Below are positions 32,797-51,560 of a DNA stretch of 64,000 nucleotides, one piece after another. The stretch spans positions 3,906,001 through 3,970,000 of the forward strand of contig NZ_CP013293.1 in assembly GCF_001456155.1 (NCBI RefSeq). Direction: 5' to 3'. The position numbers were made by a program, and so were the translations under genes. The notes below the pieces were generated by a model that worked only from the letters and a program-made list of their open reading frames with translations, was not told the DNA's origin and did no database searches. Position 1 is the first letter of the stretch. Every line of letters begins with the position of its first letter. This DNA comes from Chryseobacterium sp. IHB B 17019. GTDB taxonomy: Bacteria > Bacteroidota > Bacteroidia > Flavobacteriales > Weeksellaceae.

Positions 32797-33474
32797 ATGG
32801 AGGAGCAGATTGTGTATGAAGACAACCATCTTTTGGTGATTAATAAAAAGGTCGGGCAGCTTGTACAGGGCGACAAAACCGGCGATGAATCTCTATTGGA
32901 TTCAATTAAAAATTTTATAAAAAAAAGAGACAATAAACCCGGAAATGTTTTTCTGGGTTTGGTCCATCGTATTGACAGGCCGACATCGGGGTTGGTGATT
33001 TATGCTAAAACATCAAAAGCCCTTACCCGATTAACCCAAATGGTAAAAAACCGTGAAATCGAAAAAACATATTGGGCAGTTGTTGCTAAGGAAATGATTC
33101 CCCAGACGCAAAGGCTGGTTCATTACTTACAGAAAAACGAAAAGAATAATAAGGCTATTGTTTTCCCGAAAGCTACACAAGGCGCAAAGGAAGCGATTCT
33201 TACTTATCATATTATTAAAACGTTGGATAATTATTTACTTCTTGAAATTGATCTTGAAACAGGAAGGCATCATCAAATCAGGGCTCAGTTGTCAAAAACA
33301 GGAATTCCCATTAAAGGTGATTTAAAATATGGAGCGCCACGTTCCAATCCGGACGGCGGAATTAATCTTCATGCCAGGAAGCTGGAATTTATTCATCCTG
33401 TTACCAAAGAAAAAATAAAAATTACAGCTCCCGTTCCGCAGAATGATGCGATTTGGAGAGCTTGTGAGGATTGA
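32797..33474 (+). CDS. RluA-family pseudouridine synthase
   Basis: This 225-residue enzyme converts uridine to pseudouridine in RNA. The catalytic aspartate motif is HRIDRPTSGLVIYAKT, the RluA signature. The C-terminal region GRHHQIRAQLSKTGIPIKGDLKYG is also typical. It lacks an S4 domain. The exact RNA target (rRNA or tRNA) cannot be decided. It ends the panB operon. Confidence 0.9.
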   Translation: MEEQIVYEDNHLLVINKKVGQLVQGDKTGDESLLDSIKNFIKKRDNKPGNVFLGLVHRIDRPTSGLVIYAKTSKALTRLTQMVKNREIEKTYWAVVAKEMIPQTQRLVHYLQKNEKNNKAIVFPKATQGAKEAILTYHIIKTLDNYLLLEIDLETGRHHQIRAQLSKTGIPIKGDLKYGAPRSNPDGGINLHARKLEFIHPVTKEKIKITAPVPQNDAIWRACED

Positions 33475-33505
33475 TTTTTAATAGGTCGGAAGTTAGAAGA
33501 TGGAA

Positions 33506-33611
33506 GCTGGAAGTTATATTCGGGGGTTCCATTTTTTATTTTAGCCCATAATTAAAATCAAATAATACTTTTTACGGTTACAAAACCTCCAGCCTTCATC
33601 CAACTTCCAGC
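33506..33611. repeat. loose inverted repeat in the gap before the thiamine genes
   Basis: GCTGGAAGTT at 33506-33515 is complementary to AACTTCCAGC at 33602-33611, and a further GGAAG-rich part lies just upstream at about 33488-33505. The segment resembles small intergenic repeats seen in flavobacteria. No gene is visible in it. The 299-bp gap also holds the promoter and TPP riboswitch. Confidence 0.4.
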
Positions 33612-33648
33612 CCCTTCTGAAAAATTTTGCCCATTTCAAAAAAATAAC

Positions 33649-33656
33649 TAACTTCG
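33649..33656 (+). promoter_or_regulatory. -7-like promoter element (TAACTTCG) of the thi operon
   Basis: This is a 7-of-8 match to TAnnTTTG directly upstream of the TPP riboswitch. The other TPP riboswitch in the window has the same TTCG form at 49229-49236. Confidence 0.45.
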
Positions 33657-33663
33657 TCCAAAC

Positions 33664-33748
33664 TTTAGGGGTGTCTGCGAGAAGCGGACTGAGATTTTAC
33701 CCTTTGAACCTGATCTGGATTATACCAGCGTAGGGAAAAGTGAGATGA
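33664..33748 (+). ncRNA. TPP riboswitch (THI element) of the thiamine biosynthesis operon
   Basis: The conserved TPP aptamer landmarks are present in order: GGGGTGTCTGCGAGAAGCGG, then CTGAGATTTTACCCTTTGAACCTGATCTGG and TTATACCAGCGTAGGGAAAA. The aptamer precedes thiS and thiC, the normal arrangement. When thiamine diphosphate is abundant it should shut the operon off. The hairpin at 33782-33815 pairs CATTCCTAAA with TTTAGGAATG and covers the thiS start codon, so control may be at translation. Confidence 0.93.
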
Positions 33749-33812
33749 CTTTTGCTGCACATTCTATTGTGCAATGACGGACATTCCTAAAGTATATTTA
33801 AAAAATTTAGGA

Positions 33813-36398
<2,586 letters not shown>

Positions 36399-36423
<25 letters not shown>

Positions 36424-37142
36424 TGAGTATTGCAGGCTACGATCCAAGTGGTGGAGCAGGTTTGTTGGCGGATATTAAAACAATGGAACAGTTGAAAGTT
36501 CAGGGTTTAGGAGTTTGTACGGCAATGACTTTACAGACAGAATCTCAATGTTTGAGTTTGAATTGGCAACCTTTAGATGAAATTTTGAACTCAATTGATG
36601 TTTTAATGAAAAAATATGCTGTTCAGGTTGTAAAAATCGGAGTTGTCAAAGATGCGGAATTTTTAACTGAAATTGTAAAAACAATTAAATCTATTAATCC
36701 TCAAACAAAAATAATTTGGGATCCCGTTTTGAAAAGTACATCCGAGTTTTCTTTTTTTGATCTGAATACAATTTCTGAACTGGAAAATGTTTTACAACAA
36801 ATTGATTTAATGACACCAAACTATAATGAATATAGGGTTTTACAGAAATTTAATCTTTTTAAAAATGCGAAAAATTCATGTTCAGTTTTAATTAAAGGTG
36901 GACATCGAGAGGATAAATTAGGCATGGATATTTTATTGGATAATGGAAAAGAAATTGCAATTCATCCAAATGATGAAACCTCGGTTTTCTACCCAAAACA
37001 TGGTTCCGGTTGTGTACTTTCTTCTGCGATTGCAAGTCATTTAGCTTTAGGTGAAAATTTAGAAAATGCCTGCCGAAACGGAAAATTATACATTGAAAAG
37101 TTTTTAACAAGTAATTCTACTTTACTGGGTTTTCATTCTTAA
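36399..37142 (+). CDS. thiD: hydroxymethylpyrimidine/phosphomethylpyrimidine kinase ThiD
   Basis: ThiD phosphorylates hydroxymethylpyrimidine twice to give the diphosphate needed for thiamine phosphate synthesis. The 247 residues belong to the ribokinase fold. The opening SIAGYDPSGGAGLLADIKTM and the C-terminal HGSGCVLSSAIASHLALG (ATP/anion-hole region) are typical. The start at 36399 overlaps the preceding gene by 25 bp. Confidence 0.95.
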
Positions 37143-37262: not shown

Positions 37263-37877
37263 ATGGAAAAATTACAATACATCTCACAAGGATTTACGAT
37301 AGAAGACCAGGAACTGAACATCCGAAAAGCTCTTGATGCCGGAGTAAGATGGATCCAGGTTCGCTGGAAAAATGCTCCTGAAAATAAATTTATTAAACTT
37401 TGTGAAATTTCAAAAAATTTATGCTCAGACAATCAGACAGTTTGTATCATTAATGACCATGTTCAGATTGCAAAAGATATTGATGCAGACGGTGTTCATT
37501 TAGGATTAAAAGATACTTCTATAGAAATTGCAAGACATATTTTAGGTCAAAATAAAATTATTGGAGGAACAGCAAACACCATCGAAGATGTTCTTCAAAG
37601 AATGAATGAGCCATGTGATTATATCGGTTTGGGACCTTTGAGATTTACTTCAACCAAAGAAAAACTGAGCCCGATTTTAGGTTTTGAAGGGTATGAAAAA
37701 ATCATTCAAGATTTAAAAGAAAAATCATTAGAAATTCCAAAAATATTTGCCATTGGCGGAGTTGTTCTGAATGACATTCAATTATTACAGCAAATAGGAA
37801 TTTATGGTGTCGCAGTTTCAGGAGTAATTACAAACGAACCGACTTTCGTAAAAGAATTTAAAAAAGTTTTACAATGA
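37263..37877 (+). CDS. thiE: thiamine phosphate synthase ThiE
   Basis: ThiE joins the pyrimidine diphosphate and the thiazole phosphate to give thiamine phosphate. The 204 residues keep the canonical motifs: [27 protein letters not shown], a GGTAN substitute for the usual SxH site, [17 protein letters not shown] and FAIGGV. It is therefore the likely true synthase. It overlaps thiG by 4 bp and is preceded by a 78-bp repeat. Confidence 0.93.
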
Positions 37878-38650
37878 AAAATCAACCATTAATTATAGCA
37901 GAAAGAACTTTCGAATCGAGATTGTTTTTAGGAACAGGAAAATTCGGAAACCTTTCAGAAATGACCGATTCCATTATCGCTTCAGGAAGTGAAATGGTAA
38001 CAATGGCATTGAAAAGAATCGATTCCCAATCTTCAGAAGACGATTTGTTGAGTGCTTTAAAACCTACAAAATCTCATCTTTTACCCAACACTTCAGGAGC
38101 CAGAACAGCAAAAGAAGCGGTTTTAGCAGCGCAATTGGCAAGAGAAGCATTGGAAACCAATTGGGTAAAACTGGAAATCCATCCTGATCCAAAATATTTA
38201 TTACCAGATCCTATTGAAACCCTTTATGCAACGGAAGAATTGGCAAAATTAGGATTCATTGTGATGCCTTACATTCATGCCGATCCTGTTTTATGCAAAC
38301 GACTGGAAGATGCAGGAACAGCAGTTGTGATGCCTTTGGGAGCGCCGATTGGAACGAATAAGGGCTTGAGAACGCTGGACTTTTTAGAAATAATTATTGC
38401 CCAAAGTAATGTTCCTGTGGTTGTTGATGCTGGAATTGGAGCACCTTCCGATGCGGCAAAAGCCATGGAAATGGGCGCTGATGCGGTTTTGGTGAATACT
38501 GCCATTGCGGTTGCAAGAAATCCTGTGAATATGGCATTAGCTTTTAAAGAAGGGGTAATTGCCGGAAGAAGAGCCTTTGAATCTGGTTTAGGAGCGATTG
38601 GGAATCATGCTGAAGCATCAAGTCCGTTGACTTCTTTCTTATTTGATTAA
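37874..38650 (+). CDS. thiG: thiazole synthase ThiG
   Basis: ThiG makes the thiazole ring from deoxyxylulose phosphate, dehydroglycine and ThiS thiocarboxylate. The 258 residues form a TIM barrel. Recognised blocks are [10 protein letters not shown]-like ([11 protein letters not shown]), the catalytic lysine in VTMALKRID or [15 protein letters not shown], and [25 protein letters not shown]. It is coupled to thiE upstream and its end overlaps the first thiH frame. Confidence 0.97.
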
Positions 38651-38660
38651 ACTTAATTTT

Positions 38661-39779
38661 ATGAAGAGTTTTAAAGATTTTTTTGAAAATTATCAATGGG
38701 ATGAGGTAAAGGCAAAACTTGAAAAAGTGACGTTATCTGATGTGGAAAGCAGTCTTCAAAAAAAGAATAAAACAATCGAAGATTTCCTGAATTTTCTTTC
38801 ACCTGTTGCGGCTCAGAAATTGGAGGTCATGGCGAAAATGACGCAGCAACTCACTCAGAAACGATTCGGAAAAACTATCCAGCTGTATGCTCCGCTGTAT
38901 CTGAGCAATGAATGTCAGAATATTTGTACGTATTGCGGTTTTAGTTTGGATAATTCCATTAAAAGAAAAACACTTTCTGATATGGAATTGATGATAGAAG
39001 CCACTGTTTTAAAATCAATGGATGTCAATCACGTTTTGTTGGTAAGCGGAGAAGCGAATAAAACAGTCGGGATTAATTATTTTTTGAATGCTGTCCGTTT
39101 GTTGAAGCCACATTTTGCCAATATTTCAATTGAAGTTCAGCCGTTGTCGGAAGAAGAATATCAGCAGCTTCATGATGCGGGTGTGAATGCTGTTTTGGTC
39201 TATCAGGAAACGTATCATCAGGAAGTTTATAAAGAATATCATCCGAAAGGTAAGAAGTCGAATTTCAATTTTCGTTTGGAAACGCCTGACAGAATCGGAA
39301 AAGCCGGAATTCACAAAATAGGGTTGGGCGTTTTGCTCGGTCTGGAAGATTGGAGAGTCGATAGCTTTTTTAATGCGTTACACATCGATTATCTTCAAAA
39401 GCAGTATTGGAAAAGTAAATTTTCCGTTTCATTTCCGAGACTTCGACCTGCCGAAGGAATCATTGAACCGAATTTTATCATGTCTGATAGAGATTTATTA
39501 CAATTAATTTGCGCCTATAGAATTTGGAACGAAGATCTGGAAATTTCTATTTCAACAAGAGAAAATGAAAAGTTTAGAGATAATATCATTTCATTGGGAG
39601 CAACGGCGATGAGTGCGGCTTCAAAAACGAATCCCGGTGGTTATGCGGTTGATAAAGAGTCTTTGGAACAATTTGAAACCAGTGACGAAAGAAGCATGGA
39701 GGAAATTAGAAATATCATTAAAAAAGCAGGCTATGATCCTGTGATGAAAGACTGGGATTCTGTTTATAGTGGAATTTAA
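38661..39779 (+). CDS. thiH: 2-iminoacetate synthase ThiH
   Basis: ThiH is a radical SAM enzyme that cleaves tyrosine to dehydroglycine and p-cresol for thiazole synthesis. The CX3CX2C motif is CQNICTYC (residues about 85-92 of this form). The start at 38661 gives MKSFKDFFENYQWDEV, the family-typical N terminus. A longer frame starts six codons earlier at 38643, inside thiG. The 372 residues are a normal size. Confidence 0.96.
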   Translation: MKSFKDFFENYQWDEVKAKLEKVTLSDVESSLQKKNKTIEDFLNFLSPVAAQKLEVMAKMTQQLTQKRFGKTIQLYAPLYLSNECQNICTYCGFSLDNSIKRKTLSDMELMIEATVLKSMDVNHVLLVSGEANKTVGINYFLNAVRLLKPHFANISIEVQPLSEEEYQQLHDAGVNAVLVYQETYHQEVYKEYHPKGKKSNFNFRLETPDRIGKAGIHKIGLGVLLGLEDWRVDSFFNALHIDYLQKQYWKSKFSVSFPRLRPAEGIIEPNFIMSDRDLLQLICAYRIWNEDLEISISTRENEKFRDNIISLGATAMSAASKTNPGGYAVDKESLEQFETSDERSMEEIRNIIKKAGYDPVMKDWDSVYSGI

Positions 39780-40000: not shown

Positions 40001-40711
40001 ATGAAAAGCGAAGACACTTTTGCACGATACAGCCGACAGATTTTTATTGAAGAAATAGGACTTGAAGGTCAACGAAAAATCATGAATTCAAAAGTTCTTG
40101 TCATTGGAGCCGGTGGTTTGGGAAGCCCAGTTATTCAGTATTTGGCGGCGGCGGGAGTTGGGACTTTGGGAGTTGCAGACTTTGATGAGGTTGAACTACA
40201 TAATTTAAACCGACAAATTATTCACAATGAAAATTCGGTTGGGATTTCAAAAGTGAAAAGTGCAGAACAGTTCGTGAAAAACCTTAATCATCAAGTCGAT
40301 TTTATCGGAATTGAAAGCAAAATCAATGATTCAAATGCAGAAGAAATCATTTCTCGGTTTGATATTATTGTTGATGGTTCGGATAATTTTAAAACAAGGT
40401 ATTTAATTAACGATACTTGTAAAAAGCTTTCTAAACCGTTGGTTTACGGAAGTATTTTAGGCTTTTCGGGGCAGGTTGCTATTTTCAATTTTAAAGGAAG
40501 CAAAAACTTGAGGGATATTTTTCCTGAACCACCTTTGGATGAAAATCTTCCGGATTGTGACAGTCTCGGAGTTTTGGGAGCCCTACCGGGAATTGTTGGG
40601 AGCATGATGGCAAATTTGACATTGAAAATAATGACTGATTTGCCTTTACACGTCAATCAATTAACATTAATTGATACTTTAAACTGGAGATTTCAGACTC
40701 TTGATTTCTAA
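40001..40711 (+). CDS. thiF: HesA/MoeB/ThiF family adenylyltransferase
   Basis: This enzyme adenylates the C terminus of ThiS so that sulfur can be loaded. The 236 residues have the ATP-binding GAGGLGSPVIQYLAAAGVG block, the N-terminal YSRQIFIEEIG, and the DGSDNFKTRYLINDTC and DCDSLGVLGALPGIVGS blocks. The paired CxxC zinc motifs of E. coli ThiF are missing; only isolated cysteines remain. MoeB cannot be excluded by sequence alone, but the position behind thiH makes ThiF the likely role. It is separated from thiH by the second repeat. Confidence 0.85.
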   Translation: MKSEDTFARYSRQIFIEEIGLEGQRKIMNSKVLVIGAGGLGSPVIQYLAAAGVGTLGVADFDEVELHNLNRQIIHNENSVGISKVKSAEQFVKNLNHQVDFIGIESKINDSNAEEIISRFDIIVDGSDNFKTRYLINDTCKKLSKPLVYGSILGFSGQVAIFNFKGSKNLRDIFPEPPLDENLPDCDSLGVLGALPGIVGSMMANLTLKIMTDLPLHVNQLTLIDTLNWRFQTLDF

Positions 40712-49236: not shown

Positions 49237-49245
49237 CGACTGAAA

Positions 49246-49320
49246 TAAAGGGGTGCTGTAACAAGCTGAGATTATACCCAATGAACCTGGAACGGGTAAT
49301 GCTGTTTAGGGAAGCATTTA
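49246..49320 (+). ncRNA. TPP riboswitch upstream of a TonB-dependent receptor
   Basis: The aptamer landmarks are in order: AAAGGGGTGCTGTAACAAGC, CTGAGATTATACCCAATGAACC, TGGAACGGGTAATGC and TTAGGGAAGCAT. It is the second TPP riboswitch in the window and lies 135 bp upstream of a TonB receptor. Thiamine-responsive control of outer-membrane receptors is known in Bacteroidota, so the downstream receptor probably takes up thiamine or a precursor. Confidence 0.9.
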
Positions 49321-49410
49321 TATAATTGATAAATGATAATTGATAAATAATTTTATCAGTTTTTATAAAAAAAGTTAAAATCAATCATCTTTTATCGCTT
49401 ATCAATTATA
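49321..49410. repeat. A+T-rich inverted repeat after the second TPP riboswitch
   Basis: TATAATTGATAA (49321-49332) is complementary to TTATCAATTATA (49399-49410), and additional TGATAA copies lie between them. The hairpin could be part of the riboswitch expression platform. A CCCC run at about 49422-49425 could also pair with the GGGG of the aptamer at 49250-49253. There is no gene in the 322-bp gap between the WG gene and the receptor gene apart from the riboswitch. Confidence 0.4.
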
Positions 49411-49454
49411 AATAATCCGCCCCTTTTATTCATTAAATTTTAAAAATTTATAGA

Positions 49455-51560
49455 ATGAAAGGATTATTTTTTTTAGGGCTTACCGTTGGCTCTTTTGCTT
49501 TTTTACAAGCACAAAATACCGATTCCCTGAAAATAAGGGAAATTGAAGCTGTTAATTTTACCAAAAGACTTCCTGTTGCCAAAGAAATCATCAATGTTGC
49601 CAAAGATATTGACAGCCGGAATTTAGGTCAGGATCTGCCGATCCTTCTTAAAAACCAGACTTCCATTATCTCAACTTCGGATGCCGGAAATGGTGTTGGC
49701 TACACGGGATTCAGGATTCGTGGAGTTGCAGGAAACGGAATTAATGTCATGATGAACGGCGTTCCATACAACGATTCCGAAAGCCAGGGAACTTTTTTTG
49801 TGAATGTCCCGGATCTTACAAGCTCTGCGTCACAAATCGTAATTCAAAGAGGAGTTGGAACTTCAAATAACGGTGCGGCAGCGTTTGGGGCGAGTATCAA
49901 TGTTCTTTCCAAAGATCCTGAAGAGAAGTTTTATTTTAAAACCGATGACAGCTACGGTTCGTTCAACACCTACAAATATTCTGCGGAAATAGGTTCCGGA
50001 AAATTCTGGGGAAACAGGCTTTCTGTGATGGGAAGATACACGCACATCAATTCCGACGGCTATATTGACAGAGCTTTTTCAAAACTGGATTCTTACAATT
50101 TCACAGCTTTGTATGAAGAAGGAAAAACGAGAATCCGCTTAATGGCTTTTGGTGGAAAAGAAAAAACGTATCAGGCCTGGAACGGAATTGATAGGAAAAC
50201 CTGGGAAACAAACCCGAAATTCAATTATTCCGGAGCAATTTATGATGCAAATTGGGAAAATATCGTTGGTTTTTACGACAACGAAACTGATAATTACAGA
50301 CAAAACCATTACCAGTTACTTTGGGAGCAAAAATTTAATGACCGTTGGAATTTAGAAACAACTTTACATTACACAAAAGGAAAAGGTTACTATGAAAATT
50401 ACAAGCAGGGAGATCCTTTTGCGAGATACAATTTGGCTGATACAAATGGTGAAGAATACTCAGATTTTATCAGAAAAAAATGGCTGAATAATGACTTTTA
50501 TGGCTTAGTTTCTACATTGTACGGAAAATTTGAGAATCTTGATTTGAATTTCGGAATTGTAGGAAATCAGTATTACGGAAGACATTTCGGAAATGTGACC
50601 GGCGTTTTCTTCCCGGAAATTGATGAGCACGAATACTACAGAAACCGTTCTGTGAAAAATGAAGTAGCGGGATTTGCAAAAGCTTTAGTCAGAGTTGATA
50701 ACTTTGAATTTTTTGGAGATCTGCAGTTGAGAAATATTGATTACGATACGAGAATTATTACGGAAGGAGACGATGAAGGTGCTAATTTGGACAAAAACTG
50801 GTTGTTTTTCAACCCAAAAGCGGGAGTTAATTATAGAATTCCACAAGGAAAAATCTTCATTTCCTATGCTCATGCTCACCGAGAGCCAAACAGAGATGAT
50901 TTATTAGCCAATAATAACGTTAAAGCAGAAAAACTTCATGATTTTGAGGCTGGTTTAGAAAAACAATTCGGGATTGTGTCGTTTACGGCGAATTTATATT
51001 ATATGTATTATGTCAATCAGTTAGTTTTAAATGGTGAACTGAATAATGTCGGAGCTTTCATCAGAACCAATTCCGGGAAAAGTTTCAGAAGCGGAATTGA
51101 ATTAGGAGCTTTGGCAAAACTTTCAAAACAATGGGAGGTTTCAGGAAATGTAAGCTTCAGCAACAACAGAAACTTAGATTTTAAAGTAGAAAATGAAGGT
51201 TCAACGAAAGATTTAGGTAATACTCAGATTTCTTTTTCGCCGGACGTTATTGCCAATTTAGGAGTGAAATTTAATCCTACAAAAAACTTCCAGTTTGCAT
51301 TAATGAATCAATACGTTGGAAAGCAATACCTAGATAATTCAGAAGATGAAAATTTACAGTTGAAAGATTATCTTTTGACGGATTTTAATGCACAATATCA
51401 ATTTAAAATAAAAAATAATGATATTGCATTGAAGCTTTTGGTGAATAATATTTTCAACAAAAAGTATGTGAACAACGGAGCTGTTTATGACGGAACTCCC
51501 TACTATTTTTCCCAAGCCGGAACCAATTTTATGTTCGGGATCAGCTGGAAAATTCAGTAA
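49455..51560 (+). CDS. TonB-dependent receptor, probable thiamine uptake
   Basis: The 701 residues begin with a signal peptide (MKGLFFLGLTVGSFAFLQAQ). A short TonB-box-like segment (EIEAVNFTKRLP) follows, then the plug (GYTGFRIRGVAGNGINVMMNGVPYNDSESQGTFF, ASQIVIQRGVGTSNNGAAAFGASINVLS) and the barrel ending TNFMFGISWKIQ. The control by a TPP riboswitch, not the sequence itself, points to thiamine or a pyrimidine/thiazole precursor. No inner-membrane thiamine permease (PnuT-like) is nearby. It is followed by a terminator. Confidence 0.85.
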   Translation: MKGLFFLGLTVGSFAFLQAQNTDSLKIREIEAVNFTKRLPVAKEIINVAKDIDSRNLGQDLPILLKNQTSIISTSDAGNGVGYTGFRIRGVAGNGINVMMNGVPYNDSESQGTFFVNVPDLTSSASQIVIQRGVGTSNNGAAAFGASINVLSKDPEEKFYFKTDDSYGSFNTYKYSAEIGSGKFWGNRLSVMGRYTHINSDGYIDRAFSKLDSYNFTALYEEGKTRIRLMAFGGKEKTYQAWNGIDRKTWETNPKFNYSGAIYDANWENIVGFYDNETDNYRQNHYQLLWEQKFNDRWNLETTLHYTKGKGYYENYKQGDPFARYNLADTNGEEYSDFIRKKWLNNDFYGLVSTLYGKFENLDLNFGIVGNQYYGRHFGNVTGVFFPEIDEHEYYRNRSVKNEVAGFAKALVRVDNFEFFGDLQLRNIDYDTRIITEGDDEGANLDKNWLFFNPKAGVNYRIPQGKIFISYAHAHREPNRDDLLANNNVKAEKLHDFEAGLEKQFGIVSFTANLYYMYYVNQLVLNGELNNVGAFIRTNSGKSFRSGIELGALAKLSKQWEVSGNVSFSNNRNLDFKVENEGSTKDLGNTQISFSPDVIANLGVKFNPTKNFQFALMNQYVGKQYLDNSEDENLQLKDYLLTDFNAQYQFKIKNNDIALKLLVNNIFNKKYVNNGAVYDGTPYYFSQAGTNFMFGISWKIQ

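Follow-up and report, generated by a model that had tools for sequence, protein, structure and literature searches.

A candidate TPP-OFF translational riboswitch with strand exchange over the thiS start codon in Chryseobacterium sp. IHB B 17019

The thi operon, its promoter and the TPP aptamer

The analysed stretch of DNA, here called the window, comprises 64,000 nucleotides of contig NZ_CP013293.1 from Chryseobacterium sp. IHB B 17019 (genome size 4.08 Mb). It contains a TPP aptamer followed by thiS, thiC, a ThiE/TenI-like gene, a thiD-like gene, thiE, thiG, thiH and a thiF-like gene. The promoter, the aptamer and the genes were assigned as follows.

33627..33629, + strand, TTG of the putative -33 promoter element, 19 nt 5' of the -7 element
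33649..33656, + strand, putative -7 promoter element TAACTTCG, one mismatch to the consensus TANNTTTG
33657..33753, + strand, TPP riboswitch aptamer (RF00059, full length, 77.5 bits, gathering cut-off 54.3, E 1.5e-13)
33737..33741, + strand, 3' strand of P1, AAAGU, partner of 33662-33666 according to a constrained fold and the Rfam alignment
33813..34019, + strand, thiS, sulfur carrier protein of 68 aa (TIGR01683, 47.5 bits, over the cut-off; PF02597)
34031..35842, + strand, thiC (NF006763, 1084 bits)
35839..36423, + strand, ThiE/TenI-like protein (PF02581, 62.3 bits)
36399..37142, + strand, thiD-like kinase (TIGR00097, 144.3 bits, below the cut-off of 204.95)
37263..37877, + strand, thiE (NF000736, 225.6 bits, just below the cut-off of 227)
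37874..38650, + strand, thiG (PF05690, 349 bits)
38661..39779, + strand, thiH (TIGR02351, 528.6 bits)
40001..40711, + strand, thiF/moeB-like adenylyltransferase (TIGR02356, 246.6 bits, below the cut-off of 275.25)

The aptamer is the sole Rfam match above cut-off in the window. It scores above the curated threshold of RF00059 and is followed by thiamine genes, as is characteristic for members of this family, and it is predicted to bind TPP. Two genes of the ThiE/TenI family (35839-36423 and 37263-37877) are present in the operon; the first stays below every NCBIfam cut-off that it matched, and both a TenI-like and a ThiE role are possible for its product.

Just 5' of the aptamer a putative promoter of the type known from this phylum, TTG-N19-TAACTTCG, could be identified at 33627-33656. 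The published consensus is TTTG/TANNTTTG, and the -33 motif is described as weak in Flavobacterium johnsoniae (PMC6847099). The arrangement recurs in relatives that share the expression platform described below. A TAnnTTyG motif is found at most 25 nt from P1 in 89 of the 90 platform loci, 87 times at 5-6 nt before P1 (shuffles 2.1%), and in 76 of the 90 loci a TTG lies exactly 19 nt 5' of this box. A sigma-70 promoter scan of 33600-33850 returned no site, which is expected for the phylum, while the search with the TANNTTTG type succeeded. Since the -7 element is separated from the transcription start by 4-5 nt (PMC6847099), the position of the box predicts an mRNA that starts at 33661 or 33662, the edge of P1. 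The 11 nt upstream of 33661 are therefore probably absent from the mRNA.

Between a rluA-like gene and the thi promoter (33488-33611) there are units similar to GGAAGNTGGAAG together with a perfect 10-nt inverted repeat (33506-33515 / 33602-33611). With one mismatch allowed this pattern matches eight times in the window, 1.34 matches being expected, and the units are possibly a dispersed intergenic repeat.

A conserved hairpin over the thiS start codon

Between the aptamer and thiS two stems had been proposed in the initial annotation.

33756..33773, + strand, spacer hairpin TGCACA-TTCTAT-TGTGCA, paired and co-varying
33806..33815, + strand, start region UUUAGGAAUG, a near-copy of the aptamer sequence UUUAGGGGUG and the perfect complement of 33782-33791, with the thiS AUG (33813-33815) inside

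The main stem is formed by CATTCCTAAA (33782-33791), which is fully complementary to TTTAGGAATG (33806-33815), exactly as annotated. Both stems are contained in the minimum free energy fold of 33650-33850 (-52.0 kcal/mol, z -3.61, none of 200 shuffles as stable), a segment that includes 11 nt 5' of the predicted transcription start. The linker and start region alone (33754-33850) are similarly stable (z -3.53, 1 of 200 shuffles). The letters alone prove little, since CATTCCTAAAG occurs three times in the window with at most one mismatch, two of these occurrences being the hairpin arms, and 39 of 100 shuffles equal that. Conservation and position carry the case. The short TGCACA/TGTGCA stem is likewise real. 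Among 26 diverse platform sequences 91.7% of its cells are paired and 22 changes affect both sides, and neither value is reached by any of 500 shuffles.

The hairpin had been read as a device of translational control that occludes the thiS start, not as a transcription terminator, and a terminator before thiS had been named as one of the findings that would contradict this view. Intrinsic terminator-like sites are absent from 33400-34300 and from 33600-33850, and no T run follows the conserved AUG hairpin in the window. The leader thus shows no sign of the terminator hairpin and T run that precede the gene in the transcription-terminating type of TPP riboswitch, and occlusion of the thiS start is the reading best supported by the sequence evidence at hand.

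A control at the level of transcription, in which TPP would cause intrinsic or Rho-dependent termination before thiS and the start hairpin would be secondary, has to be weighed against it. RNA that is not translated is exposed to Rho, which counts in favour of this alternative. Moreover, E. coli thiC is described to combine both levels, with Rho acting near the start codon (PMC5234074), and RNA of the thiS operon of Bacteroides thetaiotaomicron drops with thiamine (PMC5613172). However, in the window there are no terminator-like sites in the ranges given above, and the conserved hairpin sits on the AUG and lacks a T run. We regard a primarily transcriptional control as rather unlikely.

The inverted repeat is perfect also at the DNA level and could be bound by a regulator protein. 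Yet the distance from the CAT of the 5' arm to the ATG varies from 27 to 41 nt across the 90 platform loci, the position of the repeat is tied to the ATG, and one of its arms matches the aptamer, which makes a protein-bound DNA repeat extremely improbable.

A reading frame of 81 residues starting at 33774, which would turn the hairpin into coding sequence, had also been noted. The frame is indeed open in this genome, and if translation began at 33774 the letters could be conserved as protein. But only 11 of the 90 platform loci, the present genome included, combine an upstream ATG with a frame that stays open, while in 57 of the 90 an in-frame stop codon separates the 5' arm from the ATG of thiS. 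The distance between CAT and ATG leaves remainders of 0, 1 and 2 modulo 3 in 38, 26 and 26 loci, so that no frame is kept. A leader peptide or upstream coding extension is refuted as a conserved feature by these counts, which leaves the coding explanation hardly credible; the start at 33813, giving the 68-residue protein, is the conserved one.

The annotation had further placed both an AGGA and the ATG in the 3' arm. This is correct, but the AGGA does not qualify as a Shine-Dalgarno sequence, because it directly abuts the ATG and has no match to the 16S tail (ACAUCUCAUUUU). The 3' tail of the 16S rRNA, GGCTGGAACATCTCATTTTAG, could be read at three of six matching places in the genome and is of the UCUCA form, an alteration described for Chryseobacteria (PMC9976891). 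According to the same source ribosomes of Bacteroidia fail to recognise Shine-Dalgarno sequences and rarely use initiation led by them. Occlusion of a Shine-Dalgarno sequence was therefore discarded as an explanation. The AGGA is nevertheless kept in 86 of the 90 loci, which we attribute to its pairing with the linker. Secondary structure near the start is described as modulating initiation in F. johnsoniae (PMC6847099). For ribosomes that do not rely on Shine-Dalgarno sequences, burying the AUG should thus suffice.

The same linker strand is complementary to the aptamer

While the hairpin proposed by the initial annotation was confirmed, a second pairing of the same linker strand, this time with the aptamer, had been missed.

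33663..33673, + strand, aptamer arm CUUUAGGGGUG, 5' strands of P1 and P2, predicted to be capturable by the linker
33782..33792, + strand, putative switching strand CAUUCCUAAAG, anti-aptamer (ON) and start-codon sequester (OFF), assigned from pairing, conservation and folding

The strand CAUUCCUAAAG pairs with CUUUAGGGGUG over 11 contiguous positions, two of them G-U, and in this genome the helix can be extended to 15 pairs (33662-33676 / 33779-33793). Start region and aptamer strand, UUUAGGAAUG and UUUAGGGGUG, differ at two positions. The start region thus imitates the aptamer strand, so that both compete for one complement. It is this second pairing that would make the hairpin a switch.

Folding of transcripts of increasing length is consistent with such a competition. 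For RNA from 33661 to 33800 the fold with the arm-linker helix reaches -47.2 kcal/mol, versus -33.1 with P1 and P2 forced, a preference of 14 kcal/mol. In the full-length RNA from 33661 without ligand the two pairings are nearly balanced (probability of the arm-linker helix 0.61, of the sequester 0.38). The forced ON fold has -47.8 kcal/mol, the forced combination of aptamer and sequester -42.6 and the free minimum -47.9. The OFF fold costs about 5 kcal/mol relative to ON, an amount that TPP would have to pay in the RNA of the window. With the 11 upstream nucleotides included (from 33650) the cost falls to about 2 kcal/mol (ON -49.2, OFF -47.3, free -52.0), and the probabilities shift to 0.05 for the arm-linker helix and 0.93 for the sequester.

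The core of the arm-linker helix forms with a probability above 0.5 in truncated RNA from all 90 platform loci. In the full-length RNA without ligand 77 of the 90 loci prefer the sequester and 13 the arm-linker helix. The ON state would therefore have to be a kinetic one in most species, set during transcription. For E. coli thiC a shift of the full-length RNA to the sequester, with a ligand-free state set during transcription, has likewise been described (PMC5234074).

The preference of the full-length folds could also be taken to mean that the hairpin lowers thiS translation constitutively, without any switching, and that the aptamer acts otherwise. A static hairpin, however, has no need for a linker that is complementary to the aptamer too, as is the case in 285 of 286 cells of the arm-linker helix, nor for one that follows the changes in P1 among the sampled loci (see below). 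A plain hairpin therefore appears improbable.

Conservation among thiS loci

The comparison with relatives is based on RF00059 matches, of which the best-scoring or hand-picked ones among the matches listed by each search were taken, so that strong aptamers are favoured; stricter filters were applied in searches over more than 40 genomes. The platform, including the hairpin over the start codon, is kept in 90 of 113 thiS loci that were found via the aptamer alone, a count that is independent of the platform sequence. Of these 90 loci 77 belong to the genus of the window, where every thiS locus in the set has the platform, 5 to g23, 1 to g32, 5 to family f3 and one each to f50 and f55. None of the 23 loci without it is from this genus; 15 of them belong to the class-level sample. 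In one locus of family f3 (L062) GGAG replaces GGGG in the aptamer, yet the linker can pair with it over about 14 bp; no start-codon pairing was seen there.

An exact scan with the pattern CATTCCTAA-N6..28-TTAGGAATGGA was run on the GTDB collection, which holds 84,980 genomes according to the description of the tool. It yielded 110 stretches, in 93 of which the ATG coincides with the first codon of a ThiS frame. Among these 93 an aptamer motif lies at most 160 nt upstream in 91; the leaders of the other two (L203, L222) are cut by the edge of the locus. The remaining 17 of the 110 have neither a ThiS start nor an aptamer motif. Most of the named GTDB records with the platform are Chryseobacterium. 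The 93 also include Sphingobacterium litopenaei, another Sphingobacterium, two Paenimyroides, a Flavobacterium MAG and three unplaced Bacteroidetes MAGs. The platform with CATTCCTAAAG is accordingly distributed over the genus of the window, some other Flavobacteriales, Sphingobacterium, unplaced Bacteroidetes MAGs and two further members of the class. One contig labelled Paenimyroides aquimaris (L186) carries a thiS leader of the Chryseobacterium type and a ThiS 87% identical to that of the window, which is due to either transfer or contamination.

The arm-linker helix hardly varies within the 26 diverse platform sequences, where 285 of its 286 cells are paired, and no co-variation was seen in it. 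In the sequester helix 87.6% of the cells are paired; the inner six pairs are kept in 25-26 of the 26 sequences, the outer pairs are often lost, and co-variation is limited to two cells, a value reached by 52 of 500 shuffles. The lack of co-variation reflects the near invariance of both helices, which in turn is expected if one strand has to match the aptamer as well as the start codon. Tested locus by locus, the pairing between linker and start surpasses that of shuffled sequence at the 5% level in no more than 76 of the 113 thiS loci. One locus (L067) was left out of this test due to its short linker. Three thiS starts were initially not placed (L140, later placed, L265 and L276).

Linkers follow their own aptamer arms in loci sampled from Bacteroidia

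In a sampling up to the class Bacteroidia each linker was compared with the arm of its own aptamer and with those of other loci. The set comprises 256 of 258 RF00059 loci (without L338 and L344) and was thinned by linker similarity to 136 representatives; thinning lowers the share of related sequences in all these tests but leaves some of them in. For 40 of the 136 representatives the own arm is placed among the best 5% (KS p 6e-14). When each distinct P1 sequence is represented by a single locus, 22 of 91 reach this rank, where 4.5 are expected and three shams, namely two stretches further downstream and the linker in reverse, give 5, 5 and 4. The original linkers had included roughly the last 8 nt of the Rfam match. 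In a retest they started at the match end, beyond P1, so that the 3' strand of P1 itself cannot take part. The counts of 40/136 and 22/91 remained unchanged, with 3 and 4 for the shams, while in the class-level sample the number fell to 20 of 95 from 27 of 95 originally. Loci with unrelated P1 letters (L322, L312, L306 and L279) are among those with own-arm matches.

For pairing with the start, each linker was tested against the region from -15 to +15, using shuffled linkers at 5% and two coding controls; 110 of the 136 representatives were usable, and start codons of genes other than thiS were mostly taken from the longest open frame, so that some may be wrong. Pairing is found in 24 of all 110 loci (controls 5 and 4), in 14 of the 48 that have their own arm among the best 10% (controls 1 and 2), and in 7 of the 34 arm-matched loci of the class-level sample (controls 1 and 0; Wilcoxon p 0.04). 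An earlier ranking of start positions had given no overall signal (all 115, KS p 0.52), and 21 of the 136 offered no room between linker and start. This ranking was blunted by overlapping windows and was replaced by the test with shuffles and controls.

The kinds of genes behind the aptamer differ in these pairings. Loci which we take, from their motifs, to be of the thiM type show arm pairing below 5% of shuffles in 20 of 23 and start pairing in 5 of 23. The corresponding numbers are 6 and 9 of 17 for loci with TonB-dependent receptors, 1 and 5 of 12 for loci with an EWFFNR motif, and 0 and 1 of 8 for loci presumed, again from motifs, to encode PnuT. The gene with the EWFFNR motif was observed 3' of TPP aptamers in L061, L066, L068, L095, L104, L105, L107-L111 and L137, and these loci seem to use another expression platform.

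A receptor locus of this kind is also present in the window.

49239..49330, + strand, second, weak TPP aptamer before a TonB-dependent receptor gene (49455-51560), 41.2 bits, below the gathering cut-off

Here AAAGGGG (49247-49253) can pair with CCCCTTT (49420-49426), and TTCATT (49429-49434) with AATGAA (49454-49459). The arm-linker duplex is matched by a fraction of 0.003 of the shuffles, the linker-start duplex by 0.123. It is possible that this second aptamer uses the same switching logic; the receptor is possibly the outer-membrane transporter of thiamine.

Taken over much of the class Bacteroidia, we lean, with modest confidence, towards one TPP riboswitch design fitted to ribosomes that ignore Shine-Dalgarno sequences. 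The linker would track P1 and decide on the exposure of the start, and the start region would evolve as an imitation of the sensor strand. In the thiS form of the design the letters CATTCCTAAAG/GGAATGGA are kept from Chryseobacterium to Sphingobacterium.

Proposed mechanism and relation to known riboswitches

We consider it highly probable that the leader is a TPP-OFF translational riboswitch which works by an exchange of three strands over the thiS start. The binding of the ligand, the sequence of folding events and the consequence for translation are inferred as follows. The mRNA would begin at P1. Without TPP, the linker strand CAUUCCUAAAG (33782-33792) would capture the aptamer strand CUUUAGGGGUG (33663-33673) as soon as it emerges, by which P1 and P2 are destroyed and the thiS start region is left free (ON). 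With TPP, P1 and P2 would be locked, and the leftover linker would pair with UUUAGGAAUG (33806-33815) and bury the AUG (OFF). This would cover thiS and probably the following genes too.

The closest likeness is to E. coli thiC. In its TPP-bound form the ribosome binding site and the start codon lie in a stem-loop, in the TPP-free form an anti-P1 stem excludes both P1 and the sequester, and a folding checkpoint is passed while the start region is inside the RNA polymerase (PMC5234074). Both hallmarks are predicted for the window: the AUG lies inside a predicted stem that would belong to the ligand-bound state, and a mutually exclusive anti-P1 stem is expected from the fold. The two platforms, compared here by their description, differ in that E. 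coli thiC hides a ribosome binding site together with the AUG, whereas the leader of the window is without a Shine-Dalgarno sequence. Moreover, in the window the start region copies the aptamer arm and a co-varying spacer hairpin is present. To the described riboswitches with sequestor and antisequestor (PMC2258182) the leader is similar in its simple hairpin at the initiation site, the mutually exclusive antisequestor and the OFF logic. In the text of that survey translational control is deduced from an absent terminator, whereas in the present case the strands that would change partner are mapped and the fit between them is quantified.

The TPP riboswitches of Bacteroides (thiSEGCHF, OMthi, pnuT) share the phylum and the kinds of targets, to which the comparison is confined. 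In 2017 the way in which TPP riboswitches act was described as uncertain for Bacteroidetes (PMC5613172). In the relevant part of the TaRTLEt report six of 57 TPP riboswitches are given as transcriptionally active, none of the six from Bacteroides. No published description of this platform from Chryseobacterium or Flavobacterium was found in the open-licence literature. The aptamer is an ordinary one and the switching logic is known; the platform is a variant thereof.

Since these bacteria rarely use initiation led by Shine-Dalgarno sequences, the textbook picture of a riboswitch that hides such a sequence should not apply to them. The anatomy described here predicts exactly which 11 nucleotides would switch their partner and the position of transcription at that moment, and the comparative signal is testable in a tractable relative. 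Leaders of this kind may also be a source of parts for the control of translation by a ligand in bacteria that initiate independently of Shine-Dalgarno sequences.
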